DNA of 64,000 bases, from positions 62,001 to 126,000 of the forward strand of contig CANXME010002539.1 in the NCBI GenBank assembly GCA_948144175.1. Reading direction: 5' to 3'. Source of the stretch: Closterium sp. NIES-65. Lineage: Eukaryota > Streptophyta > Zygnematophyceae > Desmidiales > Closteriaceae. Below the pieces are notes generated by a model, which ran no database searches, was not told the origin of the DNA, and saw only the letters and a list, made by a program, of their open reading frames with translations. Below, one piece after another: positions 31,443 through 64,000 of this stretch (position 1 is the first letter of the stretch; every line of letters begins with the position of its first letter). The translations under genes were made by a program, and so were the position numbers.

Positions 31443-32052
31443 GGAGTCACTGACTCACTGACTGCCCGCCCACTGGGCCCCGAGTCCTGACCAAAAGGAG
31501 GTCCGCCGACTGACTGTGCGGTGAAACGAAAGGCGTCCCTGTCCGTGAATCACTCGGCCCCAAACCACCATATCCTACTGTACACAGTATCTGTAACCGT
31601 AAAAGAGCCCATGTTCATCTTACGTGTGCCTTACTCCGGCTGTGCTCTCTCGAGCAGCCTCCTTGGTCCAGTCGGCCTTGTTACGAGAACCCGCCGTTCC
31701 CCTAGCTAGAACCCGTCAGCTGCACTTTTCACATGCTACATAGTCGACTCAGCAAGCCAACACGGCACAGAACAGAAGCTTCTTTCAGAAATCAACCTTC
31801 CAGTAATCAGTGAACCAGCGTCACTTCCATTCCAACACACCGTTGTCCCCCTGAGACACTTCCCAGAAGATAGCATCCTAGTGAGTCACCAGACAGCTCA
31901 CAGTAAACAGCTTCTTCCTTTCTCCTCCACCGTTGTGACAAACCGTCGACCGACCGAACGTCCCGCCGGTTTCCACTAAAGCACAAGCCGCGCCTAAGAA
32001 CTATTTCGACTACCGGTAGCAATAGTGGCAACGCTTATCGTTTTTTAGCATC

Positions 32053-33936
32053 ATGAACAGTCTCCGTTACCTCCAAACTTGCTTCGACCCGATGCCTTTC
32101 TGCCGGCGACACTACTACCCCCTGACACGTGCAGCAGCTCCTGTCACCGTCACACGAGAGGTCTTTCCTCGTCCAGATCCCTGCGCCGGCACGTCCGAGC
32201 CTCCCGCCGGTTCCGCTGTCAGCTCTCCCGTGGGCTCTCCTGTGGGCTCTCCCGTTGGTTCTCCCGTCGGTTCTGCCATGGGTTCCGCTTTAGATTGCGT
32301 GGAAACCACCTACGCCCCAGTCCCCTTACACGTGCGCGCGACGTGCGCCCTATGCGCGCGTCCCGCCGCGGTGCGCTGCCACGCCGACCGCGCGGACCTC
32401 TGCGTCGACTGCGACGCGGCCGTGCATTCCGCCAACTGCATCTTCCGCCGCCACGCGCGCTTCGTCCTCTGCGCGCGCTGCGCCGCGCCGACCAACTGCC
32501 ACTGGCCGCCCCCGGCGGCTGGCGCGAACCACACTTTTCCGCCCCGTGCAGTGTGCGGAGCATGTCTTCCGCTTCCCCCTGACGAGACGCTCCCCAAGCG
32601 CCAGAACTTCGACGAGTCCGCCGCATTGCTACCCCCGGGACTTGCGGGCTCAAGCGGACTCAATAGTCTCCTTTTCCTCCCATACTCGGTACAGCAACAG
32701 CAGCCGAAGCAGAAGCAGGAGAAGCAGTCGACGCTGCTTACCGTTCCATCTTGTTTCACTGGCGGTCCGCGAAGCCTGACAGCGGTAACCAGAAGCCAGA
32801 TTGAAGCGGCTTTTCCGCTGATGAATGCGCTTTCGCGGTCCAACGACGACCTCTCCGCGGCGGACCAAGTTCCGCTCCCAAACTCCGCCTCCTGCAGCTC
32901 CCTCACTGGAGCTGCTCCCCCGCGTCCGCCAACTCCGCCGACACTCCAACTCTTCCCCGAAACCGCGGAGAGCGCACCCTCACAATGCAGGGGGGAAAGA
33001 TCGTCTTCGAATACCTGCGGTGGCTTCTCGAGTCAGCCGCAGGCGCAGGCGGCGGTGGCGGAATTTGACGCGGCTGACACGCGAAGCTCGCTGCGACTCC
33101 TCGCGGACGTCGCGGGCGCAGCTGTAGCGGGGACGGCGGAAGCAACGGTGGTGCCGGCATTGCCAGAGCTTGCCCTCCGTTTGCCCGAAGCCCTTACTCC
33201 GGTGGAGGCAGCTGTGCCTGCTGGCTCCTCGAAAAGGGGTTTCGGGGTTTTCCTGACCAATTCTTTCGCGGACGCAAGCATTATTACCACCAACGTAACC
33301 CTTCTGGGCAAAAGGAAGTCTGCGTGTAGTAACGATGCCCCCGCTGTAGCAGACGGACGGAAACAGTGGTCGTCGCTGCCGTCTCTGGTTCCGCCGTTTA
33401 CCCAATCGGCTTCCGTCATCCCACCCCCGCCTCTGGTCTCGGTGGAGTCGACACCACCTGCACCAGCAGCTGTGCGAGCAGCGGCAGCCGCAAGGCGAGC
33501 AGTGAAATCGTCAGCGCCGGTAGCGTCAGAGGTGACATCAGCCGCAGGAGCCGCGGAGCAGACGGATGGTTACTTCCACCTCTCTCCGCGCAGCAACTTG
33601 CGCCATCAGGCCGTGGACCGCCTGCGCCGCATCCTGTCCTCGTGGTGCGCCAAGCTGGCGCTGCGCGGGCGGCGCGTGGTCGACCTCGCGCTGCACGTGC
33701 TTCATCGCGCGCTTCGGGACCTGCCGCTCGGATCCGTCGACAGCAACGCGCTGCGCGTGTTGCTCGCGGCGTGCCTGTGGACGGCGGCGAAGCTGGACGG
33801 CGGCCGGCAGAAGGATGTTCCCAATGGCGTCGCGATGTCTGCCGTCACATTGGTGGAGGTTAGCGTGCTACAGGCGGCGGAGTTACAGCTAATGAAAATG
33901 ATGAATTGGAACCCTCTGGAAGGATTTGAGGCATGA
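32053..33936 (+). CDS. B-box zinc-finger protein with cyclin-box-like C-terminus
   Basis: Single open frame of 627 residues. Residues 98-134 form a plant-type B-box: CALC, then C109, C117/C120 with CD, H125 and RRH134. A second, degenerate zinc module follows (C140-C143, C149, C168-C171). Plant B-box proteins are mostly transcriptional regulators acting through protein-protein contacts. There is no CCT domain. Before the B-box is a short GSPV repeat (about 58-75). The middle is Ser/Pro/Ala-rich. The last 100 or so residues (HQAVDRLRRILSSWCAKL ... VLLAACLWTAAKLDGG ... ELQLMKMMNWNPL) resemble the five helices of a cyclin box. That B-box reading is firm; the cyclin reading is inference from pattern. 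Start chosen as the first ATG of the frame. Upstream bZIP-like palindrome at 31251. Neighbours are convergent with the PUF gene. Confidence 0.8.
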   Translation: MNSLRYLQTCFDPMPFCRRHYYPLTRAAAPVTVTREVFPRPDPCAGTSEPPAGSAVSSPVGSPVGSPVGSPVGSAMGSALDCVETTYAPVPLHVRATCALCARPAAVRCHADRADLCVDCDAAVHSANCIFRRHARFVLCARCAAPTNCHWPPPAAGANHTFPPRAVCGACLPLPPDETLPKRQNFDESAALLPPGLAGSSGLNSLLFLPYSVQQQQPKQKQEKQSTLLTVPSCFTGGPRSLTAVTRSQIEAAFPLMNALSRSNDDLSAADQVPLPNSASCSSLTGAAPPRPPTPPTLQLFPETAESAPSQCRGERSSSNTCGGFSSQPQAQAAVAEFDAADTRSSLRLLADVAGAAVAGTAEATVVPALPELALRLPEALTPVEAAVPAGSSKRGFGVFLTNSFADASIITTNVTLLGKRKSACSNDAPAVADGRKQWSSLPSLVPPFTQSASVIPPPPLVSVESTPPAPAAVRAAAAARRAVKSSAPVASEVTSAAGAAEQTDGYFHLSPRSNLRHQAVDRLRRILSSWCAKLALRGRRVVDLALHVLHRALRDLPLGSVDSNALRVLLAACLWTAAKLDGGRQKDVPNGVAMSAVTLVEVSVLQAAELQLMKMMNWNPLEGFEA

Positions 33937-35082: not shown

Positions 35083-35507
35083 GCAGGGCTACCTGGGGTA
35101 TGGGACAGTTGCTGTCGAGGTTGGTGTGAGAGAGGGAGGGTGTGAGAGTGAAAGTCTTCTAGTGGTGAGTTCAGCTGGGCAAGGGGGCAAAACGTGGGCT
35201 ACAAGGAAAGGGCTACTCGAGCAGAGCTACCTGGGGTATGGGACAGCTGTTGCAAAGGTAGGTGCGAGAAAGGAAGAGTGAAAGAGGGTGAGTCTTTGTG
35301 GCAGTAAGTGCAGCAAGCGAGGAAAGAGAAAGCAGGGCTGCATAGAGAGGGCTACTTGCATAGAGAACCTGAGAAGGGTTGGGCAGGGCTACTAGACTGG
35401 AGAGGGGGGTGGGGCGGAGGTACTTGGGTAAGGCAGGGCTACTTGGGCAGGGGACGGCTACTTGGGCAGGGCAGAGCTACTCTGGCAGGTAGTTGGGAAG
35501 GGGAGGG
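35083..35507. repeat. Diverged G-rich repeats beyond the PUF gene
   Basis: Blocks around GCAGGGCTACCTGGGGTATGG near 35083 and 35225 extend over about 60 bp each, and shorter GGGCTACTTGGGCAGGG units continue to the stop codon of the PUF gene at 35508. They lie in its 3' flank. Confidence 0.6.
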
Positions 35508-38500
35508 CTACTTGGGGCGGAGGTTGGTGCGGGCGAGGATGCGCTTGCCGTAGGGGCTGCTGCGGAGGGACGGCAGGTGCGGGCGAATGGCCTCCACCAG
35601 GGCTGTGTACAGTGGGCCCTGGGGGAGTGAGCGGGAGGGCGAGGGTGGGACGGGTTAGAGGGAGAGAAAGTATGTCGGGTTGAGTGGGTGCATAAGGGAC
35701 GGCAGGTGTGGGCGAAGGGCTCCACAAGAGCAGTGTACAGCGGCGGCCCCTGGAAGAAAGAGGGAGGGGGTGAAGGAGGGGTTAGAGGGAGAGTAGGACG
35801 GAAAGATGAGGGTGGGCAGAGCACAGGGAGGAGAGGGTGGATTGCGAGGGGCCAGGGAGGAGAGGGCGATTGTTGGCAGAGGGAGGAACTCAGCAGAGGA
35901 GAGGCATGAGTTTCCTGGATTATGGCCTGCCAGTGGACCATCTCTTTCCCCGCCATCACCCATCCCCTCGTCCCCTCTGCCCTCCGTTTCTCGCCGTGTC
36001 CACGGTGAGTGCAGGCTGAATCACATAGTTGGCAAATGGGTCCTGCAGCAATCGGCCGAGAAGAGGTGAGACAACGAGTTCCTGAACGATGAGGTGGCAG
36101 CAGTTGTCGGGGGCGAGCTTGTGGCACTTCTCTTACACCCCTTCCCTCCCACCCGACCCTCCCTCCTGTAAGCCCCAGGGGGCCAGCCTCACCTTAGCCA
36201 CGATGAGTGCAGTCTGAACGACATAGTTGGCAAAGAGGTCCTGCAGGAGCTGGCCCAGGAGGGAAGAGACAACGAGCTCCTGTATGATGAGGTGGCAGCA
36301 GCTGTCAGGGGCGAGCTTCAGGCACTCCCCTCTGACACCCCCTCCCTCGCACCTGATCCTCCCTCCCTGCAAGCCCATAGCCAGCCTCACCTTAGCCACC
36401 GTCAGAGCGGATTGAACCACGTAGTTCGCGAAAGGGTCCTGCAGCAATTGCCCCAAGAGGGGCGAGACGACGAGCTCCTGGATGATGAGGTGGCGGCAGT
36501 TGTCTGGGGCGAGCTTGAGGCACTTCTCCACGACGTTGCTGCTGAACTTCTGCTGCGCCAATGGCGCGTACTGCCCCTGCAGCCGCACCACCACCTCCTC
36601 CATCGCCCACGGCAGCCCCAGGTCCAGCACATACTGCACCACGTAGTTGCTGAAGGGGAGTATGGGGAGAGGGAAGGGGAAATATGGGCAGTTTTGAGAT
36701 GTCTTAAAACTCCAACCCAAAGGAGGAGGCCCAGGGTCGGGCCACAGCATCACAAAGTTGCTGAGGAGGGGAGGAGAGGGGAGGAAGAGGGCAAGGCAGT
36801 GATATGGGAAGAGGGGGAGCTGCGACGTGCATGCGCATATCCACAGCCTCTGGTAACGAAACCCTGGCGGTACTCAGCCATTGGAGAGGGCCTTACAAGG
36901 GGATCAGCATGGCGGTTGTAACGATTTGCAGAAATATAACATGGTAGGATATGTACTTGTTAGAAGGGAAAACATCACTCAATAGATACTTGCAAAGATG
37001 AGGAACTCACCCGAAGGGGTCTTGGGAGAGCACGAGGGCGTTTGAGGCGACCTCAGCGAGGATGCGGTTCTTCTGCTGGCCCTGTGCGAAGTCAATGCAG
37101 CGCTGCAGCACACAGCAGCCGTGGCGGTGCGACGCGATCTCCACACAGTGCGACACCGCAGCGTTGAAAATGAACTGAAAAGGGACGCCGGGATCGTGGG
37201 CCGAAAGGGGGTGTGGGGGGGTGGGGGAGGGGGTACTTTAGGGACTGCAAATGTCTCATATGCAGTAAAAGACGGCTATGTCGAAAATAGACACCACGTG
37301 GCTGTCGTTGAGGTCCTTAATGAGTGTCACCACTCCCTAACCAGATTGTTACACCTCTCTCCTAGTGTTCCCACCTTGCTTGCTGCTCCCGTTCCCCGTT
37401 CACCTCGTTCTGCTGTGCAGACAGGCGCTGCAGGCAGCGCTGCACGACGTGGTTGCTGTTGAGGTCCTTGATGAGTGTCACCACACCGCAACTGTTGCAC
37501 TCTTTTACCTCACACCCCCACCTCAATTACCTCGTTCTGCTGAGCGGACAGGCGCTGCAGGCAGCGCTGCACGACATGGTTGCCGTTGAGGTCCTTGATC
37601 AGCGTCACCACGCCGCCCGCCAGACTGGCTGTCAGCCGCTGCACCGCCTGGGGGTTCGTCACCGTCTCAATCAGCTTCTGCACCGACCGCGTGCTGATGG
37701 GATGGGACAGAAAAGGGGAAGCGGGTGAAAGGGGTTCATCACCATCTCTAACTTCTGAGACGCTAAACCCGGTGCACCGCCTGGGGGGCCGTCACCGTCT
37801 CTATCAGCTTCTGCACCGATCGCGTGCTGTTGGGATGAGCAACGGAAAGGGGAAACAGGAGGGGACAGTTGGTCATCAGAGTCCCTATCAACCCGAAACC
37901 TTGCAGCGGCCACATGCTGTTTTACATCAACCCTTTTTCACCACCATCGACCCAACCACCGCACTCACGCGTGCATGTCGAGTGAGATGCTGACAATGTA
38001 CGTCTGGTTCTCTGTGGCCATGACAAGGGATCTCCTCCCTCTACAGGTGAGATATCTTAAAGACCACCCCATCACACCAACCACCGCACTCACCCGTGCA
38101 TGTTGAGCGAGATGCTGACGAGGTCTGTCTGGTTCTCCGTGGCCATGGCCAGGATCTCCTCCCTCTGCACCTCACTGCACACCTCCAGAGCCTTCTGCAC
38201 CAGGTAGTTGCCAAACGGGTCTGTCATGAGCTCCACCATGTGCGGCTTGATCTCCTTGAATATGCGCGCCACCTCCTCTGAAGTACCTTCATCAAACTTG
38301 CGCTGCAGAAACCTGTGGGCGAGGGGTAGTAGTAATAGTAGTAGGAGGGGAGGGAAGAGCAAGAGGGGGGTCTGTCATGAGCTCCAACATGTGAGGATTG
38401 ATCTCCTTGAATATGCGCGCCACCTCCTCTGCACTGCCCGCGTCAAACTTGCGCTGCAGAAACCTGTGGGCGAGGGCAAGAGGGAGTACTATAATTTGAA

Positions 38501-41500
38501 TACATCCACCAAACGAGACCTCTTTCCTTTAATACGTGTGCCGTCTGCTTTTGATTTCCCTTGCCAAACTTCCACAGCAGAAACCTAATCCCGTTACACC
38601 AGACTAGACTAGACTTGAAACCCACCTGCATCCATGCTGGTCCTTGGCAATGACAGCCATCTGCCCTTCCACCTCATCCAGCGACGAGTACTTTGAGTGC
38701 TGCGCCGACCCCAGCCCCATCCCCATCCCTCCCACCCCATATCCCCCCATCAACCCTCCAGCCCCAGAATATCCCCCCACTGGTGGTGATCCACCGCCCA
38801 GTTCCCCTCCACCCAGCCCCGCTCCAGGCCCAGGACCCATCAGCCCATTCGCCCCACTCGCCCCGTCCATTCTGTTCCTCATGCCACCTCCACCAGGGCC
38901 CAGCATTCCAGGCGCCCCGCTGCCCCCACCTCCCGCCCCCCGTGCTGCCCCTGCAGTGCCGCCGGCAAACCCAGGAGGAGTTCCCCTTCCCCCGCCTGCT
39001 CGCGGACCCCTGTCGGGAGACACATAGGGAGCCGCCCCTACGCGGTAACCAGCCTGGGACGTTACACCCTGCGGTGCACTACCGGCAATGCCTGATCCGC
39101 CCCCTGCTGCTCCCATAGCGCCTGCTCCTGCTCCTGCAGCTCCGAGCCCCATTCCTCCCATGGAATGCAGGAACGGGCAGGACTCTCCCCGTGCACAGTA
39201 CCCGCTCTGGGAAAAGAACTTGCACAGGCCAGACGGAGTGCTGCTGCTGCCGCTGCCTGCTGCCCCTGTGGCAGGGGGGAACCCAAACCCTCCCGCCATG
39301 CCAGCCAGGCCTGGGTTGAGAGCAAAGAGATCCATGCCTGGCGCGCCCCCCCGGAGCATCTGAGCAGCGGCTGCTGCTGCTGCTGCGCCGATGGGGAGGT
39401 TGGCGGCTTGGCCTAGCAGCTGCTGCTGCTGCTCCTGCAGGAAGGCTTGCTGGTGGAAGAGCAGCTGCTGCTGCTGCTGGCGCTGCTGCCGCATGAGCAG
39501 ATCCTCCTCCACCTGCTGCTGCAGCGCCTGCAGCCTCTGCGCCTGCGCCTGGAGCATGGCCATCTGGAGGAAGACAGCAGAAGGGAAAGAAGAAGTCATG
39601 AGATGGACCTGAGGTTGTCGTATGGTAAAAGGGAGAAGTACACGCATGATCAGTGGGCGCGGGAGGGAGGTTTATCAAAGCAAGTTTTTCGGCCCAGCAA
39701 CTAATCTCTTACCTGCTGTGCCTGAAGCAACGAGGACATATCCACATCCGACCCTGCTGCCACCCCTTGTGAAGCCCCCTTCCCTCCCTTATCCTTCGAA
39801 TCCTTCTCCCCCTGCTCTGCCCCTACTTGCTGTGGCTGCTGAAGCCCACCCATGGCAGAGAGCATATCCGCAGGGTTCGCCCCAGGAAACATCCTCGCAG
39901 CCTGCAGGGCAGCAGCTGCTGAAAACGCATCCATGGGTGCGCCAAGCCCAAACCCGTCAAGCCCCATACCCATGCCAAATCCCCCTCTTGGCCCAGCACC
40001 CCCTGCCGCTGCTGCAGCCGCTGCAGCCATGCCGCCCATTCCGCCATACAAGTCCACGCCAGGCGCGCCTGCTCTGGCCCTCAGCAGCTGCTCATACAGG
40101 TGCAGATTGGAGGGGGCGATGCCTGCTGCGCCTGGCAGCATGCCTGGAAGAAGGCCCGCCCCGCCTTGAGCAAGAAGGGCGTCCAGACCCAGAATCCCGG
40201 CGCCCTGACTTCCCAGCCCTGGGGAACCAAGTCCTGGCAGTGCCCCTCCTGCGGCTCCAGCCAGAGAAGGGGAGCTTGCAGCAGCAGTGGCAGCACTAGG
40301 AGCTCCTGGGGTGGAAGCTGCTGGTCCAGCGGCGCTTGATCCTGCCTTATTCGCGCTGGCGTCCGCTGCTGCGCCTTTCCCTGCCTCCCCTGCCTTGTCT
40401 TTGTTTTGGGTGGGGGCAGCAAAGGCTGCGGCTGCAGCTGACAAGCCCATTCCAACAGGCAGACCTGCTGCTGCACCTGCTCCTGCGAGACCAGCGCCTG
40501 CCAGTCCTGCCGCGGCTCCTACCCCTCCCCCTGCACCCACAGCTGCCAGGAGCTCCTCTAAGCTCGCACCAGACGCTCCCGAGGCTCCTCCCATCGCTTG
40601 TAACAGCGCAGCCGTTGTGAAAGGATCTAAACCCACCGTTCCGCCCAGCAGACCTGCAGCAAGAGCGGGTGGTATACCACCAGGGCCTCCAACGGCACCT
40701 GTAAGAGAAGATATCCCTGCAGTGGCTGAGGAACCAAGAGCAGACATGCCACCCATCCCTCCCATGAACCCGCCTACATTAGCCGTCCCTACTACGACTG
40801 GACTCCCCTTGCTGCCATGACTTCCAGAAGGGCTGCTTACGTGCTGCTGGGACCCTGCCTTGCCATGTCCTGATCCGCTATCAGCAGCTCCGTTACTGGA
40901 ACTCGCGTCTCTCGCGGATCCTCCTACACCAAGCCCCTGAAAAGCCGCTGCCAAACCATTAGCTCCAGAGGCGTCTTGACCTGGTCTCTTGTCAGCCAGC
41001 GCTTTCCGTGACAGCTCCCGTTCTTGCAGCGCCTGCTGCTGAGCCACCTGCCGCTGCATCTCCTCTAGAAAGGCCTCCTCATCTGTCCCATCGCCTCCGC
41101 TACCAGCTATCGCCTCTCCATTGGCTTTCCCACCCTCGTTCTGCACCCTCTCCGCGTCCTGTCTCCTCATCTCTTCCATACTTTCCCTCAGCTTGCTGTC
41201 GTCTAGTGCCAAACCGCCGAAAAAACCACCGTCGGCGCCCATCTCGCCTTCTCTTGCAGCGAACTTGGGAGAATCCGTGTACAGCTGGAGGCTTTCCACG
41301 GGAGGAGGGAGCTTTTTCACGCCGGAATACACCTTGTAGAACTCCTCATAGTCTTCGTCTCTTCGGATGTCTGCCAGGGACAGGGGAGTGGAAACGATGT
41401 GTGACGACCAAGTACAAAGGAGGAAAGAGGTAATGGGAGCGTGAAGAATCACACTATCCTCTCCAATGAAGAACCTCGTTCGTAACACCACGTCACCAAT

Positions 41501-47360: not shown

Positions 47361-47550
47361 TGTCCCTACATTGATCGCGCGGCAGCAACGACCTCCCGAT
47401 AAAAGCTCTTCGCCTAAGAAACAAATAGCCCAGATAATTCGACGCGAGAATCGCAGAAAGCCGTGAACGGGCCTAAGGTCGTGCTTCTAGCAGCGAGTCG
47501 CCGAATGAATGTTTGCGAGGGTGAAATATGGCAAGTTCTGACATCAAACA
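47361..47550. promoter_or_regulatory. Short 5' flank of frataxin up to the YR element
   Basis: Only 190 bp separate the frataxin ATG (47360, minus) from repeat A1 of the element at 47551, so the gene's upstream promoter region is largely replaced by or shared with the retrotransposon. Confidence 0.5.
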
Positions 47551-47730
47551 TTATAATTTTTAAACACATTGATGTTTTTCAAAATTGTGTATTGTGAAAG
47601 CGAAGCTGACTGTACCGAATATTTGGCAGCGTCGAAGCGCGCTAAACGCCCTTCTCCAACTACAAAAACCGTGGGTTGGAGTTCATTCCCTCCACCCACG
47701 TTTCTCGTTTTCCAACGGCTCAATCAACAT
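47551..47730 (+). repeat. Split direct repeat A1, copy 1
   Basis: TTATAATTTTTAAACACATT ... CTCAATCAACAT, 180 bp; same sequence as A2 at 53100-53279. Likely contains the element promoter. Confidence 0.9.
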
Positions 47731-47843
47731 TTCCGTTCGAGTAGTTCTTTTCCCCGTCCAAGCTGGCTAGAACTCGCACCCTTCCCAGAGGCGAGTCACC
47801 CTCAACACTTCTGCAAGACATTTTCAACCACAATCGATCTACA

Positions 47844-49052
47844 ATGGCGTCTACGCCGGCACTTAACCGCGTCAATTCGTCTGCGCCGGTTTCCGACTCC
47901 GACCGTAACGCCCGAGAAATGACGGGCGATCGCCGTAACAAGCGGCGGGCAGAGGAAGGATCGCCCGCCCCAACTGCCGTGGACGTGCTGTTGGGCGGGC
48001 TCGAGGTCAACAAAAACTCGAGCCCGCCCCAGCAGCAGCACCCCTCGGCCCCTGTGGCGCCTGTGGCGCCTGTGGCGCCTGAGGCGCGTGTGGCGCAAGT
48101 GGCGACGGCGGCACCTGCAGCACCTGGGGTGCCACACGCGCCTGACGCGGAGCACACGCCGGCGCCTGTGGCTGGACCGTCGCGTCAGCGCCAGAGGCGC
48201 CGAACATCGACTTCTTCTGACGCGACGACCCCGGCGTTGACCAACGCGTTGACTCCGGACCAGGTCGCTGCGCTTCTGTCCCTGTTACAGCAACAACCCG
48301 CCAGCGTTACAGCTACGGAAATTGCACAACCCGCGGCGTCTGCATCTGCTAACAAGGAAAACGCAAAAAAAGAAAAAGGAGCGCGAGGAACAACGGCGAA
48401 CCGGCACAACAAGGAAGCACCAGCCAGCATCCCACCTGCGCCAGCGGCCGACAACGACACCGACGGCTCCGACGACGATGATGGTGAGGCTCCGGTCCAT
48501 ACCGCAAATTTTCATTCCATGGAGCATCTTCCCCCCCTCCCCTCTACTACTAACACCACTTGGTCGGCGGCGACGTTCAACGACGAGCACGTGCGGGCGA
48601 AAGCGGAGATTCTGGAGGACATGCGGGCCTACCTGAAACACGCAGAGCACAAGCTGCAGCACGGCGACTCGGCGGGCGGACTCGAAATGGTCGTCGCCGC
48701 CCTCGACGACATTTCCGCGCGCTTCGACATGTTTCAAGTCGAAGACGCATCCGACGACCGCGTTGCCAAGCGCTACAAGATGTACCTGGAGAAAAGCCTT
48801 CTCACCTCGCGGCCGTTCAAGCAAGCCGTCGCGGACGTGGCTGCCATGGACCGAGCGGCGGGCGCTCACGCTCGCTCCCACCGTGGTGGAAACCACGGCG
48901 CCAAGGCGTTCGCCCCAAAACGTGGCCCTCCAACCTCGGGCAACTTCCAAGGCTTTCGTGGTTCGTGTTTCCGCTGCGGACAGCCAGGCCACGTCGCCAA
49001 TGCCTGCCCTCGGAATGGGCATGGGGGCCAAGGACCCGCACCGGTTGTGTAA
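47844..49052 (+). CDS. YR element ORF1, Gag-like with CCHC knuckle (copy 1)
   Basis: 402 residues. N-terminal part is low-complexity with a PVAPVAPVAP run; the central part is acidic; the C-terminal half has a helical capsid-like character (NDEHVRAKAEILEDMRAYLK). It ends with a classical zinc knuckle, CFRCGQPGHVANAC, near residues 376-389. The product should bind element RNA. The ORF is identical to that of copy 2 at the protein level, and no stop or shift interrupts it. Confidence 0.85.
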   Translation: MASTPALNRVNSSAPVSDSDRNAREMTGDRRNKRRAEEGSPAPTAVDVLLGGLEVNKNSSPPQQQHPSAPVAPVAPVAPEARVAQVATAAPAAPGVPHAPDAEHTPAPVAGPSRQRQRRRTSTSSDATTPALTNALTPDQVAALLSLLQQQPASVTATEIAQPAASASANKENAKKEKGARGTTANRHNKEAPASIPPAPAADNDTDGSDDDDGEAPVHTANFHSMEHLPPLPSTTNTTWSAATFNDEHVRAKAEILEDMRAYLKHAEHKLQHGDSAGGLEMVVAALDDISARFDMFQVEDASDDRVAKRYKMYLEKSLLTSRPFKQAVADVAAMDRAAGAHARSHRGGNHGAKAFAPKRGPPTSGNFQGFRGSCFRCGQPGHVANACPRNGHGGQGPAPVV

Positions 49053-49674
49053 GGTTCGGGCTATGGTGAAGCGCGCCTCTAGGCGCGATGCACGGTGCAC
49101 TTTTGAGTGCTTAGACCGTGGGCAGCCTAGTAGGGCTTGCGGTGGCCATGGCCAGCCCTAGGATAGGGTGGTAGAAGTTGGCCATAGGCCTAGCTTTGGG
49201 GAAGAGGAAGAATGCCTCTCGGTCCCCTAGGATAGGGTAATAAAGTATGGCCGTAGGTCTAGCTTTGGGGAAGAGGAAGAATGCCTCTCGGTCCCCCGTA
49301 TGCCCCAATTGATGGGATGAGAAACATGCTAGTAGGCATGACAATGTATGACCATGAGAGATAGGGATTTTATTAAAGGCCCCTCTTGTTTGTCACGGAT
49401 TAAAAAAAAAAAAAAAAAAAGGAGGAGAAGGGGAGAGGGAGAAAAAGAGAGTACGTACGCTCCTCACTCAAACCGCCACCATGCATGGCAAGGATGAGCA
49501 GCCCTGGTTCAACCGTTGGAAGCCCAAAAAGGGTGAGAAGGAGCAAGGGGGGGGGAGTAGGGCATAGCGATGTCGCCTAGCCCAAGTAAAGGCACGCGCG
49601 AAAAGACACGAGCTCATGACAAGCGAAGCATGCAAATGCTCAAACAACAATGGAAACACATCCAAAAAGAGAGG

Positions 49675-49685
49675 GAGAGAGAAAG

Positions 49686-49741
<56 letters not shown>
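49675..49741 (+). repeat. GA microsatellite, copy 1
   Basis: About 30 GA units between ORF1 and ORF2; the matching CT tract of copy 2 (about 58648-58730) is longer. This interval holds the 27-bp length difference between the two copies. Confidence 0.9.
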
Positions 49742-49742
<1 letters not shown>

Positions 49743-49893
49743 ACACGAGGGAAGCATGATCATGGTCCCAAGCATCAATCCTCCAGAAAAAAAAAAAAAA
49801 AAAAAACGAGGGGAGGGAAAAGGAGAGAGTATGAGAAAGAGTTTGCCAAGGTGCGATCGGACGCCCTATATGGAATGACGACAAACCGTCCGT

Positions 49894-51987
49894 ATGGTCC
49901 TCACTGTTGACGGTTCATTTTTCGCGCATGCATGTATATGTCACACGCATGAACTAATTAAGGCGTGCAACCTGATTGTTCGCGTTCATTTCCTTGCCGT
50001 ACATACAGGAGCACAACAATACGAGGTGCCTCGCGACGATGGCCCGTACGAATTCGCCGTCACGGACAAAACCGTCACACGGATGTGCGGTCGGCTTCGC
50101 TCGACCTTTGCGTGGTGGAGCTCATGGTGCCCTTGCAGCCTCGTCCTATCCATCATCGCCAACGGTTACTGGCTTCCATGGAGCCACGGCCCACCACAGG
50201 CCTTTCGGGAGCGTAACCACGCTGGTGCATACGCGCATGCGTCGTTCACACGTACTGCCATCCAAGAACTCACAGAGACCGGAGCTGCAGTCGAGACAGC
50301 CGCAAGCGAGCTTACGTGCATAAGCCCACTTAACGTGGTCGAGCAGAAAGAAAAATGCAGGCTCATCCTCGACCTGAGAAAAGTCAACACGAACCTCATC
50401 GTCCCAAAATTCAAGTACGAAGGACTCAGCCGTGTGGCAGACGTGGCACGCGCTGGGGATTGGATGTTTTCTATTGATCTCAAATCCGGGTACCATCACA
50501 TCGATATCCATCCTTCATGCTGGAAGTTTCTCGGTTTTGGATTCGATGGGCGCACTTACTCCTTTCGTTCATTGCCGTTCGGTCTTGCGACAGCCCCATT
50601 CATCTTCACGCAACTCATCAAGCAGCTAGCCCGTCGCTGGCGGGAGCAAGGCATCCGAGTAGTACCATACGTGGACGACATCTTATTCCTTTGCCAGTCA
50701 AAAGCTCACGCGCAGGCTACTTGCCACCGTGTAATACTGGACCTTAAAGCAGCAGGTTTGGTGATAAATGCGAAGAAATCACAGCTGTCACCATCGCAAC
50801 ACCTTCGATTCTTGGGTGTGGAGCTAGACACGGCCACAGGCCGATTTACCATCGGTCCCGAACGACGAGCCTCACTACATGCAACCATTCGGAACCTGTT
50901 GAGCGCAAGCAAGGCATGTCGACCCGTCTCAGTCCGCCAAGTGGCCAGAATCACAGGCATGCTCGCGTCAATGGGCGTCGCGCTGGGCGCAACAGCTCGT
51001 GCTTTCAGCCACGCCATGCTACAAGTGATCAATGACGCACCTTCATGGAAAAGCAGCGTGATCATCCCCCCAAACGCGGCTGAGGAGCTAAACTTCTGGC
51101 TCGAAGAGTTTGACAGGTTCAACGGTGCACCGTTTCACGTTCGAAACAGCTACGACGCTGTCATCCATGTGGATGCTAGCGCTCACAGTTGGGGCGCCAC
51201 TTTGACCACATTTCCTGGCGGCCTCGAAGAAGCTAGCGCAACAATGCCAGAGCCGCTGCGAGCGACGTCCAGCACACGGAGGGAGATCGAAGGTGTGCTT
51301 TGGGCACTCCAAACATACTCCAGCAAGATCACGCACAAACATGTTCTTGTGCGGGTGGACAATCAGGGCGTCTTCTTCATCCTTCGCAAAGGTGGCTCGC
51401 GCAGCCCCGACCTTACCACGGCCTGCCAAGACATCATTCGACTATGCATGGAGCACGGCACGCGTCTAATCATCGAATGGATCCCACGGGAGCTAAACTC
51501 ACACGCCGATGAGCTCTCAAAAGCAGTCGATCATGACGACTACTCGTTGAAGACGCCGTGGTTCCGCATCTTAGAACGGCGTTGGGGTCCCCATTCCATC
51601 GACCTCTTTGCAAACTCCCGCAACTCCCAGCTGCCACGCTTCTGCACTAAAATTCCTCATCCACAAGCCACCGCAGTCGATGCATTCTCGCTCGCATGGA
51701 CATCAGAAAATAGCTTTGCGTTCCCCCCGCCCCATTTAGTTCCGGCCGTCCTCCATCACGCACAGCGCACCCGTGCATCGCTCACATTGATCATCCCACA
51801 CTGGCCGGGTGCAAACTGGTGGCCACTTTTACAACCTTCCCCACGCAACTGGGCACCGTACATCCACGCGCACATTCCCTTGACACACGGCAGCCAATGC
51901 CTGGCAGCTGGAACACATTCCGCTGCTTTTTCAGGCACTGGATTACCACACAGCCCAATCATCGCACTTCGGGTGGTTTTTGACTAA
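49894..51987 (+). CDS. YR element ORF2, reverse transcriptase/RNase H (copy 1)
   Basis: 697 residues. RT motifs: LILDLRKVNTNL, FSIDLKSGYHHIDIH, FRSLPFGLATAPFIFTQ and PYVDDILFLC (catalytic YVDD). RNase H follows with HVDASAHSWGA, EIEGVLWAL and VRVDNQGV. After it comes WGPHSIDLFANSRNSQLPRF ... DAFSLAW, a block typical of DIRS-order elements. The enzyme copies element RNA to DNA for a circular intermediate. No protease domain. The first 90 or so residues, from the ATG at 49894, look unlike RT and the true start may be further in. Seventeen bases separate it from ORF3. Confidence 0.9.
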   Translation: MVLTVDGSFFAHACICHTHELIKACNLIVRVHFLAVHTGAQQYEVPRDDGPYEFAVTDKTVTRMCGRLRSTFAWWSSWCPCSLVLSIIANGYWLPWSHGPPQAFRERNHAGAYAHASFTRTAIQELTETGAAVETAASELTCISPLNVVEQKEKCRLILDLRKVNTNLIVPKFKYEGLSRVADVARAGDWMFSIDLKSGYHHIDIHPSCWKFLGFGFDGRTYSFRSLPFGLATAPFIFTQLIKQLARRWREQGIRVVPYVDDILFLCQSKAHAQATCHRVILDLKAAGLVINAKKSQLSPSQHLRFLGVELDTATGRFTIGPERRASLHATIRNLLSASKACRPVSVRQVARITGMLASMGVALGATARAFSHAMLQVINDAPSWKSSVIIPPNAAEELNFWLEEFDRFNGAPFHVRNSYDAVIHVDASAHSWGATLTTFPGGLEEASATMPEPLRATSSTRREIEGVLWALQTYSSKITHKHVLVRVDNQGVFFILRKGGSRSPDLTTACQDIIRLCMEHGTRLIIEWIPRELNSHADELSKAVDHDDYSLKTPWFRILERRWGPHSIDLFANSRNSQLPRFCTKIPHPQATAVDAFSLAWTSENSFAFPPPHLVPAVLHHAQRTRASLTLIIPHWPGANWWPLLQPSPRNWAPYIHAHIPLTHGSQCLAAGTHSAAFSGTGLPHSPIIALRVVFD

Positions 51988-52004
51988 TTGAGAATGTACG
52001 CGCC

Positions 52005-53054
52005 TTGTGTCCGGATCCGCTCCCAAAGCTACACAACCAACTCATCAACATGCTCACACAATCGCGAGCGAATTCGACAATCCGTACATACGAACCGTAC
52101 TGGGCCAAGTTTCGGGCCTTCTGCACAAAGGTGGATCTTCCATTTCTTCCCGCATCCGACATGACCCTCGCGCTATACTTGGTGCATGCAATCCAACGCA
52201 AAGCAACCTTGTCTGTAGTGCAGCTCACGTGCTCGGCAGTCAGCTTCGCCCATCGCATGACTGGAAGCAAATGCCCGACTGTCGGACCGTTTACCACCCA
52301 AGTGCGGGACTACGCGAAACGACACTGCCCTCGCCCTAGTCGTTTGAAGGAGCCCGTATCAATCCAACAAGTTCGGGACATGTCCGCGAACTACTTGCAG
52401 TCGGACAATCCCGCTGAATTTCAGAAGGGGTTGATCCCTATCCTCATGTACTCCGGATTTTTGCGATACTCCGACCTCGTTGCCATCCAGTGGCAAGACA
52501 TCCAATTCGACGATGCAGTCATGTGGATCCTCATCCCACACTCAAAAACGGACCAGGCTGGTCGTGGAACCTGGATTCCCATCGCCGCAACGACGGACCC
52601 TTGTTGCCCCGTGCGCTGCACCCAACGCTTCCTCCAACTCGCTGGCTATGGCCCTCATTCCGAGGGGTCGTTGATTCGCGTTTTCAGCCACGCTTCAGCC
52701 AACAAGGGCCAGGCCAAGCCACCCTCGTACACAACGATCCGAAACTGGTGTAAAGAAGCATTCGCCAAAGTAGGAATTGGGGAGCAGCAGCTCGGCACGC
52801 ACTCCTTCCGAAAGGGCGCGGCAACCGTAGCCGCCAACATCGGCGTGCCGGACAGAATCTTCAAAAGGATGGGCAGGTGGCGAAGTGACACCGCCAAAGA
52901 GATGTACGTCACACCATACGTCGGACATCTTATCAAGGCATCCCGCGACCTACAGGACCCGACATACGCGCTGCCCCCAGAACAGCACGCAGAGGCACTC
53001 TTACGCAACCGCAAGCCACCACTGGCCATGTCTCAGAGGCCCCAGTTGCAATGA
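52005..53054 (+). CDS. YR element ORF3, tyrosine recombinase (copy 1)
   Basis: 349 residues. Phage-integrase fold with the expected catalytic set: Arg154 (GFLRYSDL), Lys181 (HSKTD), His266-x-x-Arg269 (THSFRKG), Trp292 in place of the second His (GRWRSD) and nucleophile Tyr301 (AKEMYV). It replaces a DDE integrase, inserting a circular cDNA by strand exchange, which fits the split repeats. Its last codons lie inside repeat B1, which begins at 53042. Identical in copy 2. Confidence 0.92.
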   Translation: MCPDPLPKLHNQLINMLTQSRANSTIRTYEPYWAKFRAFCTKVDLPFLPASDMTLALYLVHAIQRKATLSVVQLTCSAVSFAHRMTGSKCPTVGPFTTQVRDYAKRHCPRPSRLKEPVSIQQVRDMSANYLQSDNPAEFQKGLIPILMYSGFLRYSDLVAIQWQDIQFDDAVMWILIPHSKTDQAGRGTWIPIAATTDPCCPVRCTQRFLQLAGYGPHSEGSLIRVFSHASANKGQAKPPSYTTIRNWCKEAFAKVGIGEQQLGTHSFRKGAATVAANIGVPDRIFKRMGRWRSDTAKEMYVTPYVGHLIKASRDLQDPTYALPPEQHAEALLRNRKPPLAMSQRPQLQ

Positions 53055-53279
53055 GAACGATGCCAAATTATAAGGACAAGAAAGCAAGCTTTCTCAATAT
53101 TATAATTTTTAAACACATTGATGTTTTTCAAAATTGTGTATTGTGAAAGCGAAGCTGACTGTACCGAATATTTGGCAGCGTCGAAGCGCGCTAAACGCCC
53201 TTCTCCAACTACAAAAACCGTGGGTTGGAGTTCATTCCCTCCACCCACGTTTCTCGTTTTCCAACGGCTCAATCAACAT
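53042..53279 (+). repeat. Split direct repeats B1-A2, copy 1
   Basis: B1 (53042-53099, CCAGTTGCAATGAGAACGAT...TTCTCAATA) runs directly into A2 (53100-53279). Confidence 0.9.
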
Positions 53280-53398
53280 CCCCACCACCCACCCCGGACC
53301 AACTACAAGACCACAGCTGCTTGGACGGACGACTCCATAGCTAGTAATATTTGCATGTACTAGCATGTGTTTACGAACGATGCATATGTTGTAATAAG

Positions 53399-53450
53399 CC
53401 AGTTGCAATGAGAACGATGCCAAATTATAAGGACAAGAAAGCAAGCTTTC
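53399..53450 (+). repeat. Split direct repeat B2, copy 1 (3' end)
   Basis: Matches B1 for 52 bases up to AAGCTTTC and then diverges (GAGCAC), six or more bases earlier than in copy 2, so the 3' end is slightly shortened. Confidence 0.85.
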
Positions 53451-53509
53451 GAGCACATTGTTCGAAATTTTTGCCCATTTTACAGTAAGGCCAACGTGTG
53501 GACCTTCGA

Positions 53510-54030
53510 GTCTCTTCCCCCCTAGGGGACGGCTCTCAGGCCACGCTAGGACCCTTGGTCCCCTTCCCTCCCCTGGGGGACGGCTCTCAGGCCACACGGG
53601 GACCCTCGGTCCCCTTCCCCCCCTGGGGGACGGCTCTCAGGCCACACGGGGCCCTCGGTCCCCTTGCCCCCCTGGGAGACGGCTCTCAGGCCACACGGGG
53701 ACCCTCGGTCCCCATCCCCCCCTGGGGGACAGCTCTCAGGCCACACGGGGACCCTCGGTCCCCTTCCCCCCCTGGGGGACGGCTCTCAGGCCACACGGGG
53801 ACCCTCGGTCCCCTTCCCCCCCTGGGGGACGGCTCTCAGGCCACACGGGGACCCTCGGTCCTCTTCCCCCCTTGGGGGACGGCTCTCAGGCCACAGGGGG
53901 ACCCTCAGTCTCCTTCCCCCCCTGGGGGACGGCTCTCAGGCCACACGGGGACCCTCGGTCCCCTTCCTCCCCTGGGGGACGGCTCTCAGGCCACACGAAG
54001 ACCCTCGGTCCCTTCTTTTTATTGGGAGAC
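53510..54030 (+). repeat. 50-bp minisatellite, about ten units
   Basis: Unit GGGGGACGGCTCTCAGGCCA followed by CACGGGGACCCTCGGTCCCCTTCCCCCCT. Because 50 is not a multiple of three and the unit lacks stops, all three plus-strand frames stay open over about 600 bases. Each unit holds a GGGGACC-CTC-GGTCCCC hairpin. Not a gene. Confidence 0.9.
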
Positions 54031-54931: not shown

Positions 54932-54990
54932 ATATTGAGAAAGCTTGCTTTCTTGTCCTTATAATTTGGCATCGTTCTCATTGCAACTGG
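54932..54990 (-). repeat. Split direct repeat B2, copy 2
   Basis: Minus strand CCAGTTGCAATG...CTTTCTCAATAT, full length compared with B1. Confidence 0.85.
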
Positions 54991-55109
54991 CTTATTACAA
55001 CATATGCATCGTTCGTAAACACATGCTAGTACATGCAAATATTACTAGCTATGGAGTCGTCCGTCCAAGCAGCTGTGGTCTTGTAGTTGGTCCGGGGTGG
55101 GTGGTGGGG

Positions 55110-55347
55110 ATGTTGATTGAGCCGTTGGAAAACGAGAAACGTGGGTGGAGGGAATGAACTCCAACCCACGGTTTTTGTAGTTGGAGAAGGGCGTTTAGCG
55201 CGCTTCGACGCTGCCAAATATTCGGTACAGTCAGCTTCGCTTTCACAATACACAATTTTGAAAAACATCAATGTGTTTAAAAATTATAATATTGAGAAAG
55301 CTTGCTTTCTTGTCCTTATAATTTGGCATCGTTCTCATTGCAACTGG
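55110..55347 (-). repeat. Split direct repeats B1-A2, copy 2
   Basis: B1 55347-55290 followed by A2 55289-55110 on the minus strand. Confidence 0.9.
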
Positions 55348-56384
55348 GGCCTCTGAGACATGGCCAGTGGTGGCTTGCGGTTGCGTAAGAGTGCCTCTGC
55401 GTGCTGTTCTGGGGGCAGCGCGTATGTCGGGTCCTGTAGGTCGCGGGATGCCTTGATAAGATGTCCGACGTATGGTGTGACGTACATCTCTTTGGCGGTG
55501 TCACTTCGCCACCTGCCCATCCTTTTGAAGATTCTGTCCGGCACGCCGATGTTGGCGGCTACGGTTGCCGCGCCCTTTCGGAAGGAGTGCGTGCCGAGCT
55601 GCTGCTCCCCAATTCCTACTTTGGCGAATGCTTCTTTACACCAGTTTCGGATCGTTGTGTACGAGGGTGGCTTGGCCTGGCCCTTGTTGGCTGAAGCGTG
55701 GCTGAAAACGCGAATCAACGACCCCTCGGAATGAGGGCCATAGCCAGCGAGTTGGAGGAAGCGTTGGGTGCAGCGCACGGGGCAACAAGGGTCCGTCGTT
55801 GCGGCGATGGGAATCCAGGTTCCACGACCAGCCTGGTCCGTTTTTGAGTGTGGGATGAGGATCCACATGACTGCATCGTCGAATTGGATGTCTTGCCACT
55901 GGATGGCAACGAGGTCGGAGTATCGCAAAAATCCGGAGTACATGAGGATAGGGATCAACCCCTTCTGAAATTCAGCGGGATTGTCCGACTGCAAGTAGTT
56001 CGCGGACATGTCCCGAACTTGTTGGATTGATACGGGCTCCTTCAAACGACTAGGGCGAGGGCAGTGTCGTTTCGCGTAGTCCCGCACTTGGGTGGTAAAC
56101 GGTCCGACAGTCGGGCATTTGCTTCCAGTCATGCGATGGGCGAAGCTGACTGCCGAGCACGTGAGCTGCACTACAGACAAGGTTGCTTTGCGTTGGATTG
56201 CATGCACCAAGTATAGCGCGAGGGTCATGTCGGATGCGGGAAGAAATGGAAGATCCACCTTTGTGCAGAAGGCCCGAAACTTGGCCCAGTACGGTTCGTA
56301 TGTACGGATTGTCGAATTCGCTCGCGATTGTGTGAGCATGTTGATGAGTTGGTTGTGTAGCTTTGGGAGCGGATCCGGACACAA
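55335..56384 (-). CDS. YR element ORF3, tyrosine recombinase (copy 2)
   Basis: 349 residues, identical to copy 1, with Arg154, Lys181, His266, Arg269, Trp292 and Tyr301 all present. Two intact, identical recombinases facing each other mean that both elements are potentially autonomous. Confidence 0.92.
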   Translation of the reverse strand: MCPDPLPKLHNQLINMLTQSRANSTIRTYEPYWAKFRAFCTKVDLPFLPASDMTLALYLVHAIQRKATLSVVQLTCSAVSFAHRMTGSKCPTVGPFTTQVRDYAKRHCPRPSRLKEPVSIQQVRDMSANYLQSDNPAEFQKGLIPILMYSGFLRYSDLVAIQWQDIQFDDAVMWILIPHSKTDQAGRGTWIPIAATTDPCCPVRCTQRFLQLAGYGPHSEGSLIRVFSHASANKGQAKPPSYTTIRNWCKEAFAKVGIGEQQLGTHSFRKGAATVAANIGVPDRIFKRMGRWRSDTAKEMYVTPYVGHLIKASRDLQDPTYALPPEQHAEALLRNRKPPLAMSQRPQLQ

Positions 56385-56401
56385 GGCGCGTACATTCTCA
56401 A

Positions 56402-58495: not shown

Positions 58496-58645
58496 ACGGA
58501 CGGTTTGTCGTCATTCCATATAGGGCGTCCGATCGCACCTTGGCAAACTCTTTCTCATACTCTCTCCTTTTCCCTCCCCTCGTTTTTTTTTTTTTTTTTT
58601 TCTGGAGGATTGATGCTTGGGACCATGATCATGCTTCCCTCGTGT

Positions 58646-58647
<2 letters not shown>

Positions 58648-58722
<75 letters not shown>

Positions 58723-58730
58723 CTTTCTCT
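58648..58730 (-). repeat. CT microsatellite, copy 2
   Basis: Longer counterpart of the GA tract of copy 1; together with T runs at about 58583-58600 and 58994-59014 it accounts for the length difference between copies. Confidence 0.9.
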
Positions 58731-61248: not shown

Positions 61249-64000
61249 TCACAACGTGAATTCAGCAGGGAGGCATGGCAGGCGCTGAATCCTAGCCCCC
61301 AGCCCTCTGAGCTTGGTATCCAGGCGCTCATACCCCCTGTCAATATGCGCCACGCCCTCTATGTGCGTGCGGCCCTCCGCTGCCATCCCTGCCAGCACCA
61401 GCGCTGCTCCTGCCCGCAAGTCAGTGGCTGCCACGGGGGCGCCGTACAGCTGGCTGCCCTGATCCCTGCCGCTGATGATGGCGGTGTTGCCTGTGATCTT
61501 GATCTTGGCTCCCATCTTCTGCAGCTCCTCCACTGCTTGCTCAAAGCATGGTATGATGACATGCCATTGCACAGCACACACGTTGCCAGCCACAATACAG
61601 CATGCAATAAGACCCATTCGCGCCATGGATTATCGCGTGCGAACCCACCCAACGCATGCATACCACAAACACCATGCCATGCGGACACACAAGAATCCAC
61701 CGGTTAAATGAATGATTCAAGCAGCAGAGAAACAGCGACAGGACAAACGCCCGCACACTCCAAACCATTCAGCAGCTCGGCAGCACAAAACAGAGCGCCC
61801 CAAGGCTGTTCGCCGCACTCACCATGTCTCATCCGTGACTCAAACACTGTCTCCCGGATGACGCTCTGCCCGCTGGCAGTGGTGAGCGCGGCCATGAGCT
61901 GCGGCTGCATGTCCGTTGGGAAGCCCGGGTACGGCAGCGTCGTCACGTCCGCTGCTCTCAAAGGCCAGATGCCCGGCGAGATCTGCTTGCAAGGGGAAGA
62001 GAGGTGGAGAAACGAGAGCAAAAACCAGAGAGTGAACAGCTTGACATGCCAAACTTCACCACATCTCCTTACACCCATTCTTACTGTACCAAACGTTCCA
62101 TACTTAACATCTGACAATATTCTCCACACGCCTTGGACATGCCTCGCACACCTGTACCTACTGTACCACACAGCCACACTGTACCAACCATACCTTGAGA
62201 GTGCCGATCTTGGTCTGCTGCACGCGGCACCCCATGGCTCTGAGCTTGCTGATCACAGCCATCAGATGCCGCGGGATCACCGGCGACAGCGACACCACCG
62301 ATCGCGTGATGGCCGCAGCTGCCAGGAAGGTTCCCGCCTCAATGCGGTCAGGTATGATGGTGAACTCGGCGGGCCCCAGCCTGGGCACGCCCTTAATGAC
62401 GATCGTGTTGGTGCCCGCCCCCCTGATCTGCGCGCCACACGAGATGAGGAAATCTGCCAGATCCACCACCTCGGGCTCCTGGCGGGAGAAAAGGGAGGAT
62501 AGGAGGGGATGTGGAGGTTGGTTTTGGGAAATACGGAGATAGGCCAGGTTCACCACCTCAGGCTGGTGATGGGAGGCGGGAGGAGAAACAAGGAGCGAAG
62601 GGAAGAGAAGTGAAGGGACAGAATTGAAAACCACAGCAGTCAGTGGTGGCTGCAGAGGCGACGATCGGAAAAGACAAGAAGCGTCGTCAGCAACCCAGAG
62701 CAACATTCCAGCGCATCATGTTGGCACGCCTACCTCCCCCTTAGTGGTTACCTGAGCGAAGCATCATGTCGCCCGACTCTCCCCCAGCGCTCACCTGGGC
62801 GACGTTAGAGAGAGTGGTTTCGCCGTCCGCGAGCGACGCGGCCATCATGAGCGTCTCGGTGGCGCCCACCGAGGGGAAGTCCAGGTAGAAGCTCCCGCCC
62901 TTGAGCCGCCCGCCGTCCGCCGTCTGCACGTGCACGCGCCCCTGCCTGCGGGCGGGGAGGGGGGAAGAGAGGGGGAGCGAGGGGGAGAGAGGGGAGGGTA
63001 GAGGGAGGGAATGAGAATTGAAAAAGGGAGAAAAAGTGAGGAGCTGCGGTGATACGATTGAGAGTGCGGTGGGGATGACACAGGGGGTAACGAGGGAGAG
63101 AAAGCCAACTAGGCTCGCGGATAACGGAATGCGACATTGCCCATTAGGCTTTACAGACAGCCTAAGAAGACTTTTCGGGCGACTACAGTGGGCAAAACAC
63201 CAGAGCTAAAAGCAGCGGCAATGGCTAGAACTGGCCCCGATTGGCGGTTAGGTGGACACGCGTAATGGGCGCGCTAAATGAACATCACACCACAAAAAAA
63301 AAAGACTCAATGCGCTCACCTGATATCGACCTTTGCGCCCAGCGCCTCGAGGCCGCGCACGTGGAGGTCGATGGGGCGCGCGCCGATGTTGCAGCCGCCG
63401 GGCAGCGGCACCACCGCCTCCCCCTGTCTCCCCACAAGCGCGCCGATCACGAAGAAGCTGGCGCGAAGCTTCCGCACCACGTCGGGGCACGGCTCCACGG
63501 ACGACAGACAGGACGCGTCGACCAGCACGGATGAATCCTGGCCGTCCACGCCTCGCTGTATTTTCACGCCGACCGATTGGAGAACCTGAAGACCGACGCA
63601 GCGGATTAAAACGCACACAGACGGGTAGAAGACGAGGAGTAAGTAGGAAGACATGATGTTTAGTATCGTCAGGGGTAACATGACAGTGTGATGACACGGC
63701 AGTAACGGTATGGCCGTACTGACATGGCAGTAAGACATGGGAGTAATGGCATGCCAGTAATGACATAGTAATGTTGGCACGGCAGTAGTGCCATGAGAAT
63801 AATGACATGGCCCCAATGCCATGGAAATGCAACTCTCGACACAACGAAGTTTTATTTTTTCGCCTGAAATGACGAAGGTAGGTGCTTGAAGGAAGGAATA
63901 GGAGGCAGGGACGGATATCACTCGGGCCGAACCTGGAACATCCGCCTGATGTCATGTAGGTCCGGCACCCGACGCAAAACGAGAGGCTCGGAGGAGCAGA
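61249..64000 (-). CDS. murA: UDP-N-acetylglucosamine enolpyruvyl transferase (MurA), N-terminus beyond right edge
   Basis: Six exons visible on the minus strand: from beyond 64000 to 63933, then 63585-63320, 62945-62795, 62478-62194, 61982-61823 and 61532-61249; all GT-AG and in frame, about 404 residues of a domain that is about 420 in bacteria. MurA moves enolpyruvate from PEP to UDP-GlcNAc, the first committed step of peptidoglycan synthesis; in streptophytes with a plastid peptidoglycan wall it acts in the chloroplast. Seen here: [17 protein letters not shown], the loop with catalytic Cys ([16 protein letters not shown]), [49 protein letters not shown] with the conserved Asp, [19 protein letters not shown] and HIDRGYERL. 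The catalytic Cys makes it a fosfomycin-type target by family knowledge. Any transit peptide and the Lys of the N-terminal motif lie outside the window. Confidence 0.95.
62531..62562 (-). pseudogene. Decayed copy of the 5' edge of a MurA exon
   Basis: In the intron before exon 62478-62194, an acceptor CACCAG is followed by [12 protein letters not shown], against [13 protein letters not shown] at the start of the real exon. Same pattern as in the PUF gene. Confidence 0.65.
63655..63830. repeat. Imperfect short repeats in a MurA intron
   Basis: Many variants of ATGGCAGTAATGAC, about 12-25 bases apart, in the intron between the first two visible exons. Confidence 0.6.

Follow-up and report, generated by a model that had tools for sequence, protein, structure and literature searches.

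The introns between exons 4 and 9 of a PUF gene from Closterium sp. NIES-65 contain partial copies of the adjacent exon edges, splice sites included. The gene lies in the stretch of DNA analysed here (the window: 64 kb, positions 62001-126000 of contig C2241 in an 874-Mb assembly of 2400 contigs). At least ten copies are spread over the five introns, and all of them (10/10) stand on the side of the edge that they copy: 5′ edges are repeated upstream of their exon and 3′ edges downstream, as a preliminary description of the window had noticed. The pattern recurs around exons of other genes and is a property of the genome, not of this PUF gene alone. We attribute the copies, with a probability of roughly 0.85, to tandem duplications of roughly 85-200 nucleotides (nt) that straddled splice junctions, the inner copy of each becoming intron and decaying.

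The gene model was rebuilt from the sequence. Its introns are GT-AG, and exons 4-9 when joined form a single open frame of 617 amino acids, for which Pfam returned PUF (E=1.4e-70, five stretches) and zf-CCCH (6.6e-8). The PUF part aligns with the solved yeast PUF4 across 318 of 323 PUF4 residues. The one frame (35508-39563) thus pairs a PUF domain with a CCCH zinc finger; no relatives of the protein were found in a viral-contig scan. The exons are as follows:

38626..39563, minus strand, exon 4: CCCH zinc finger and start of the PUF region; no 3′-edge copy found.
38094..38312, minus strand, exon 5: extra 125-nt unit at the 3′ end on the other haplotype (L009).
37531..37693, minus strand, exon 6, from the rebuilt gene model.
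37011..37174, minus strand, exon 7: no edge copy passed.
36391..36649, minus strand, exon 8, from the rebuilt gene model.
35508..35618, minus strand, exon 9: carries the stop codon.

Exon-by-intron alignment placed eight copies, each adjoining its source exon. When flanks were added to the alignment two more appeared, an older copy of the exon 5 head and a weak copy of the exon 8 head. In the order of the gene, with identities to the source, the ten are:

38483..38586, minus strand, intron 4/5: the older of two copies of the 5′ edge of exon 5, including the acceptor AG; identity 70/107, z 5.5, p 0.003.
38368..38463, minus strand, intron 4/5: the younger of the two, covering 96 of the 219 nt of exon 5 from its 5′ edge and preceded by an intact acceptor; 0.906 identical.
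37970..38045, minus strand, intron 5/6: unit D, which copies the 3′ edge of exon 5 together with the donor; 0.867 identical, one stop, a 1-nt gap.
37769..37826, minus strand, intron 5/6: copy of the exon 6 5′ edge with acceptor; 0.914 identical.
37404..37489, minus strand, intron 6/7: copy 1 of the exon 6 3′ edge, donor GAG|GTGAAC; 0.919 identical.
37292..37336, minus strand, intron 6/7: copy 2, of the exon 6 3′ part, donor gone; 0.822 identical.
36710..36806, minus strand, intron 7/8: weak copy of the 5′ edge of exon 8 that includes the acceptor and the intron tail; identity 75/112, z 4.7, p 0.003.
36193..36330, minus strand, intron 8/9: copy 1 of the 3′ edge of exon 8, with an open frame and the donor AAG|GTGAGG; 0.797 identical; its use would add 66 amino acids in frame.
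36000..36132, minus strand, intron 8/9: copy 2 of the exon 8 3′ edge, donor lost; 0.812 identical; within a 198-nt tandem at 36000-36528.
35695..35743, minus strand, intron 8/9: copy of the exon 9 5′ edge with acceptor; 0.878 identical, a 1-nt gap.

The preliminary description had named chance similarity and a dispersed repeat as the ways in which its claim could fail. Chance is excluded for four of the five introns: the six adjacent exon-intron pairs that they contribute scored 76-168, with z of 9.8 to 33.3 over dinucleotide shuffles, and the remaining 24 of the 30 pairs had z of 3.9 or less. Antisense alignments of all 30 pairs gave 19-62 (raw scores, no z). The intron 7/8 copy is weak: z was 0.8 against the whole of exon 8 and 3.8 (p 0.010) against its first 80 nt, and the repeat there had z 6.8 in a scan unguided by exons. 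No copy of either exon 7 edge or of the exon 4 3′ edge passed in the alignment tests of the PUF introns (exon 7 head, z 3.0-3.4). As for a dispersed repeat, no clear relative of the copies was found elsewhere in the window, where the best outside match was 30 nt long (E 0.014); related copies at unrelated places, as expected of introner-like or dispersed elements, were thus not seen within the window, to which the search was confined.

The units combine exon letters with intron letters beyond the splice site of one junction, and the exon share varies, from 45 to 138 nt within units of 126 to 198 nt, never amounting to a whole exon. The exon 8 unit forms a head-to-tail tandem of 198 nt in 2.7 copies, and a self-search of the window returned direct pairs inside the PUF gene spaced 126, 129, 133, 151, 198, 278 and 396 nt apart. 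No intron with exonic sequence at both ends was found in the PUF gene model. The copies differ in age, as had been supposed, with identities to the exon of 0.80-0.92 among the eight first placed. The open exon 8 copy with an intact GT donor was recovered essentially where it had been described; that the others have stops holds for one only, since the other seven of the eight codon-aligned copies have no in-frame stop (two of the eight have a 1-nt gap).

The exon-unguided repeat scan covered 22.1 kb, most transposon sequence being left out, and yielded 17 direct-repeat groups, 10 of them between PUF exons 5 and 9. One each lay in the PUF 3′ flank, in exon 4 and in an intron of the MurA-like gene of the window, and four elsewhere; three antisense segments passed. 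The edge test itself was applied to 18 introns of four window genes. It gave z above 5 in 4 of 6 introns of the PUF gene, with a fifth at z 3.8 (p 0.010), and detected a copy in one of the four introns of the MurA-like gene (z 5.1, p 0.003). We also observed that the stop-bearing coding end of the PUF gene is seemingly repeated in its 3′ flank (35421-35556), resembling an edge copy at the end of a gene (61/87 identical, z 3.9, p 0.003; a 19-nt array of 3.6 units lies there).

A second PUF gene (L012, with haplotig L011) carries copies in all five introns examined. There, 9 of 10 edge tests were positive at p 0.005 with z of 15-45, the tenth having z 0.0, and some edges read from the sequence occur three times. 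Arrays of about 21 nt and 16 nt are found at L012 1101-1415 and 4143-4372, in front of and inside this gene, and the two haplotypes are one unit apart in the length of the 16-nt array.

Similar arrangements were apparent in profile matches to proteins of other families. On C946, a synthetase exon (profile positions 223-373) is followed within 1 kb by matches to positions 331-364, 327-362 and 328-401, and partial second matches stand on the expected side of chaperonin exons on C43, C1626 and C1052. The search for polar exon-edge copies proposed for the genome was made on samples. For chaperonins and synthetases we took one haplotig per exon, dropped 11 of 60 loci with stops in the profile match and merged the rest by hand to 27 exons (merged pairs L045/L046, L059/L060 and L061/L062 are diverged or badly aligned and may be paralogues); copies were sought within 700 nt of the exon. 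Copies were present at 21 of the 27 exons (9/13 chaperonin, 12/14 synthetase); all 34 faced their own edge, 33 of them within 12% of it, and the antisense controls were positive in 0/54. For DEAD helicases, 10 of 48 profile matches were fetched: four exons had copies, all four polar, and 1/20 antisense controls was positive. Pooling the three families gives a copy at 25 of 37 exons, 38/38 copies polar and 1/74 antisense positives. A sign test on polarity gives 7e-12 when copies are treated as independent, though some exons share a gene or are paralogues. None of the 38 copies exceeded 90% of the exon match, so that whole-exon duplication was not observed.

Copy number at these junctions is still varying, because the other haplotype holds an extra unit at exon 5. 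Most loci examined are held by near-identical contig pairs, as if the assembly carried both haplotypes, and the counterpart of the PUF gene is on C626. Over 9 kb the two differ at 41 of 9000 sites (0.46% substitutions) and by a single indel of at least 8 nt, 125 nt long and lying across the exon 5 donor. On C626 there are three units, namely the exon edge (E), a middle copy (M) and the decayed copy (D), of which the window lacks M. In unit M the donor is intact and there is an insertion of 1 nt; over its first 60 columns, counted by eye on the alignment, it differs from E at 7 positions and from D at 5. M probably predates the split of the haplotypes, since these differences far exceed the haplotype divergence. 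The E units of the haplotypes differ at two sites, and at both the window carries the letter of M. In the simplest reading, M would have been lost in the lineage of the window through exchange between E and M, leaving exon 5 with the end of the copy; alternatively, two private changes on C626 would account for these sites. Elsewhere, 24 of 26 haplotig pairs were aligned, two of them badly; in the 22 kept, 12 of 20 indels of at least 30 nt, counting minisatellites, were similar to the adjacent sequence at a score of 0.55 or more.

Copy-bearing introns are longer than those without copies. In a set of 23 introns from five genes, with intron 7/8 counted as copy-bearing in spite of its weakness, median length was 400 nt with copies (n=11) and 178.5 nt without (n=12; p 0.00015), which fits the idea of intron growth in the preliminary description. 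In two PUF genes 38% and 39% of all intron letters could be traced to exon-edge copies; for intron 7/8 the figure at the threshold used is 0%.

These observations fit a scheme in which small tandem duplications of the stated length would be frequent in the genome. One that straddles a junction would be tolerated if the spliceosome keeps to the outer edge; the duplicated exon edge would then be intronic, be spliced out and decay. Such a filter alone would yield polarity, because a copied head can be concealed only in the intron before its exon and a copied tail only in the one after it. Further events, together with unequal exchange in the small arrays, would add copies, and introns would thereby lengthen with sequence derived from their own exons. 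Mixed units, tandem order, polarity and the haplotype unit all support duplication across splice junctions with conversion of the inner copy to intron, as first suggested for this gene. The copies would normally be left out of the spliced mRNA. We infer that selection, rather than duplication directed to edges, lies behind the polarity; the duplications themselves may originate in break repair, paired nicks or exchange.

There is also a wider reading, to which we would give somewhat under even odds: splice junctions in this lineage may be unstable tandem-repeat loci genome-wide, with many introns growing from their own exon edges and copies that keep exchanging with the exon. Unequal recombination could then swap exon ends (the end of exon 5 apparently coming from unit M), and introns would be a changing reserve of exon ends.

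Several results weigh against duplication and decay as the explanation. Copies are not universal: none was found at 12 of the 37 sampled exons, in any of the five introns of the Alfin-like gene or the three of the frataxin gene of the window, or in three of the four introns of the MurA-like gene. In the sample with haplotigs double-counted, positives also arose in 5 of 86 tests on sequence lying 780-1480 nt away, though these may be further copies. Junctions of young units are hardly readable, with one clean two-copy case (41 nt, 3 nt shared), and the comparison of intron lengths cannot show the direction of cause. Finally, equal-rate neutral decay fits the exon 8 copies poorly, on account of silent changes unique to the exon (P 0.005 or less), and an omega of 0.3 fits these copies as well.

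The exon 8 case deserves detail. The copies of exon 5 and the 5′ copy of exon 6 are consistent with neutral decay; the copies of the exon 6 3′ edge, exon 8 and exon 9 have fewer amino-acid changes than simulated neutral copies, a deficit that persists under mutation bias for exon 6 3′ and exon 8. Pairwise silent differences had raised the suspicion that the copies of exon 8 are under strong constraint, which was rejected (omega 0.05, P 0.005). A three-way split of exon 8 and its two copies over 133 nt assigned 2, 0 and 10 changes at codon positions 1, 2 and 3 to the exon, and 3, 4, 4 and 2, 2, 4 to the copies, so that 11 of the 19 copy-unique changes fall at positions 1 and 2. The silent excess sits on the branch between exon 8 and the copies: across 36000-36528 the silent divergence of exon 8 from both copies is greater than equal-rate neutrality predicts, and the copy-unique changes look near neutral. 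Mutation bias (AT plus CpG) lessened the misfit without removing it, and a doubled exon rate improved the fit in part (P 0.15 and 0.035). The best-fitting models tried placed 60-70% of the divergence under coding constraint, in three mutation models. Exchange between exon and copy, as suggested by the haplotypes, could produce this pattern, though the numbers are small; the simple form of duplication and decay is incomplete for the exon 8 copies.

Duplication might instead be directed to splice junctions, for example by DNA breaks opened by transcription or splicing, and polarity would then mark the site of duplication and not just what is tolerated. Every sampled copy faces an edge, as this proposal would have it, but the selective filter accounts for an identical polarity and the variable exon share of the units also speaks against it. 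Moreover, the shortest introns without copies are 80 nt long, and a duplication of 130 nt at such an intron must take in an exon edge because the intron is that short; short introns may thus explain why edges predominate. We consider directed duplication unlikely.

The copies could also be alternative exon ends, retained for swapping or adding parts of PUF repeats and so altering RNA recognition, a possibility raised in the preliminary description. Two of nine inner splice sites would keep the normal C-terminus, the donor of the open exon 8 copy and the acceptor of the exon 8 5′ copy (37 amino acids added, in frame), and the amino-acid deficit in the exon 6 3′, exon 8 and exon 9 copies, with an acceptable omega of 0.3 at exon 8, would agree with use. 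Against it, the other seven sites would spoil the C-terminus, the second exon 8 copy has lost its donor, more than half of the changes unique to the two exon 8 copies fall at codon positions 1 and 2, strong constraint was rejected, and chaperonin and synthetase genes, where PUF swapping cannot apply, carry such copies. This proposal did not stand up well, and we regard it as quite improbable.

Highly improbable, too, is an origin of the intronic pieces in a diverged paralogue or allele, brought in by insertion or gene conversion with silent sites already changed. It would account for the silent changes unique to exon 8 and for the best-fitting constrained-divergence models. The copies of exon 5 and the 5′ copy of exon 6, however, fit neutral decay, the copies form tandems with the exon that they repeat and include intron letters from its junction, and the genome yielded one further PUF gene pair, plainly a different gene (no copy-by-copy comparison was made). 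Chance similarity, low complexity or misassembly has next to nothing in its favour beyond pyrimidine- or G-rich introns and the pyrimidine tract on which the intron 7/8 copy relies, and except for that copy taken alone it is refuted by the z values, the antisense controls (0/54 and 1/20), the lack of dispersed matches in the window and the same repeat groups on a separate contig at 0.46% substitutions.

The elements of the proposed mechanism are already known. In a potato RdRp gene a tandem duplication crosses an intron-exon boundary (PMC4974935); as here, the duplicated piece spans the boundary and its inner exonic segment is left within an intron. There, however, a new intron with a cryptic donor arose, whereas the present copies, which are stacked, lengthen introns that already existed, at many junctions of several genes. 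The Rogers model describes intron gain by tandem duplication of exon segments carrying AGGT (review, PMC3443670; Drosophila, PMC2891723). It shares with our case the tandem duplication of part of an exon that turns intronic; it differs in that no new intron position is created here and that the copies bear the splice sites of existing introns. Exon sequence is likewise repeated within a gene in tandem exon duplication and mutually exclusive exons (PMC9013439), and the Exonize survey found partial, inter-boundary and intronic matches commoner than full ones (PMC12343006); unlike either, the copies described here are of edges only and strictly polar, none of those sampled exceeding 90% of the exon match. 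Break repair has been described as a source of short head-to-tail duplications (PMC8355091). The head-to-tail form is shared. Fill-in repair would be expected to leave junctions with little or no microhomology; the one clean young junction that could be read shares 3 nt, and a repair origin is here a candidate. Among the titles and beginnings of abstracts searched, which cover subscription papers sparsely, we met no description of dense, polar exon-edge copies in introns; neither the density of the copies nor their strict polarity nor the lengthening of existing introns across several genes within one genome was encountered there.

Intron lengthening by means other than transposon insertion is hard to see because its traces fade. 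The edge copies, which account for more than a third of the intron sequence in two genes, would record one route by which introns can lengthen without breaking the gene, and their polarity illustrates how splicing can shield a class of mutation that would otherwise be gene-breaking. Since haplotypes differ in copy number, gain, loss, selection and splicing error could become measurable within one species.

The one copy found in the window outside the PUF gene is located as follows, its coordinates being taken from an 87-nt period (z 6.5):

62528..62604, minus strand, MurA-like gene, intron 2: an exon's 5′ edge copied together with the acceptor; z 5.1, p 0.003.

The gene itself, at 61249-63585, has at least four introns and matches Pfam EPSP_synthase; we take it to be MurA, a peptidoglycan enzyme. 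Other window genes matched Alfin and Frataxin in Pfam, and a B-box gene supposed at 32026-33936 gave no Pfam match. Two DIRS-like elements with reverse transcriptase and tyrosine recombinase lie at 47547-53450 and 54939-60866, inverted relative to each other; the stretches 49742-53450 and 58646-54939 are 99.97% identical across 3709 nt, the result of either a recent inverted insertion or an assembly effect. Each element contains direct repeats of 181-184 nt, and between the two, at 53500-54015, is an array whose period is about 50 nt.

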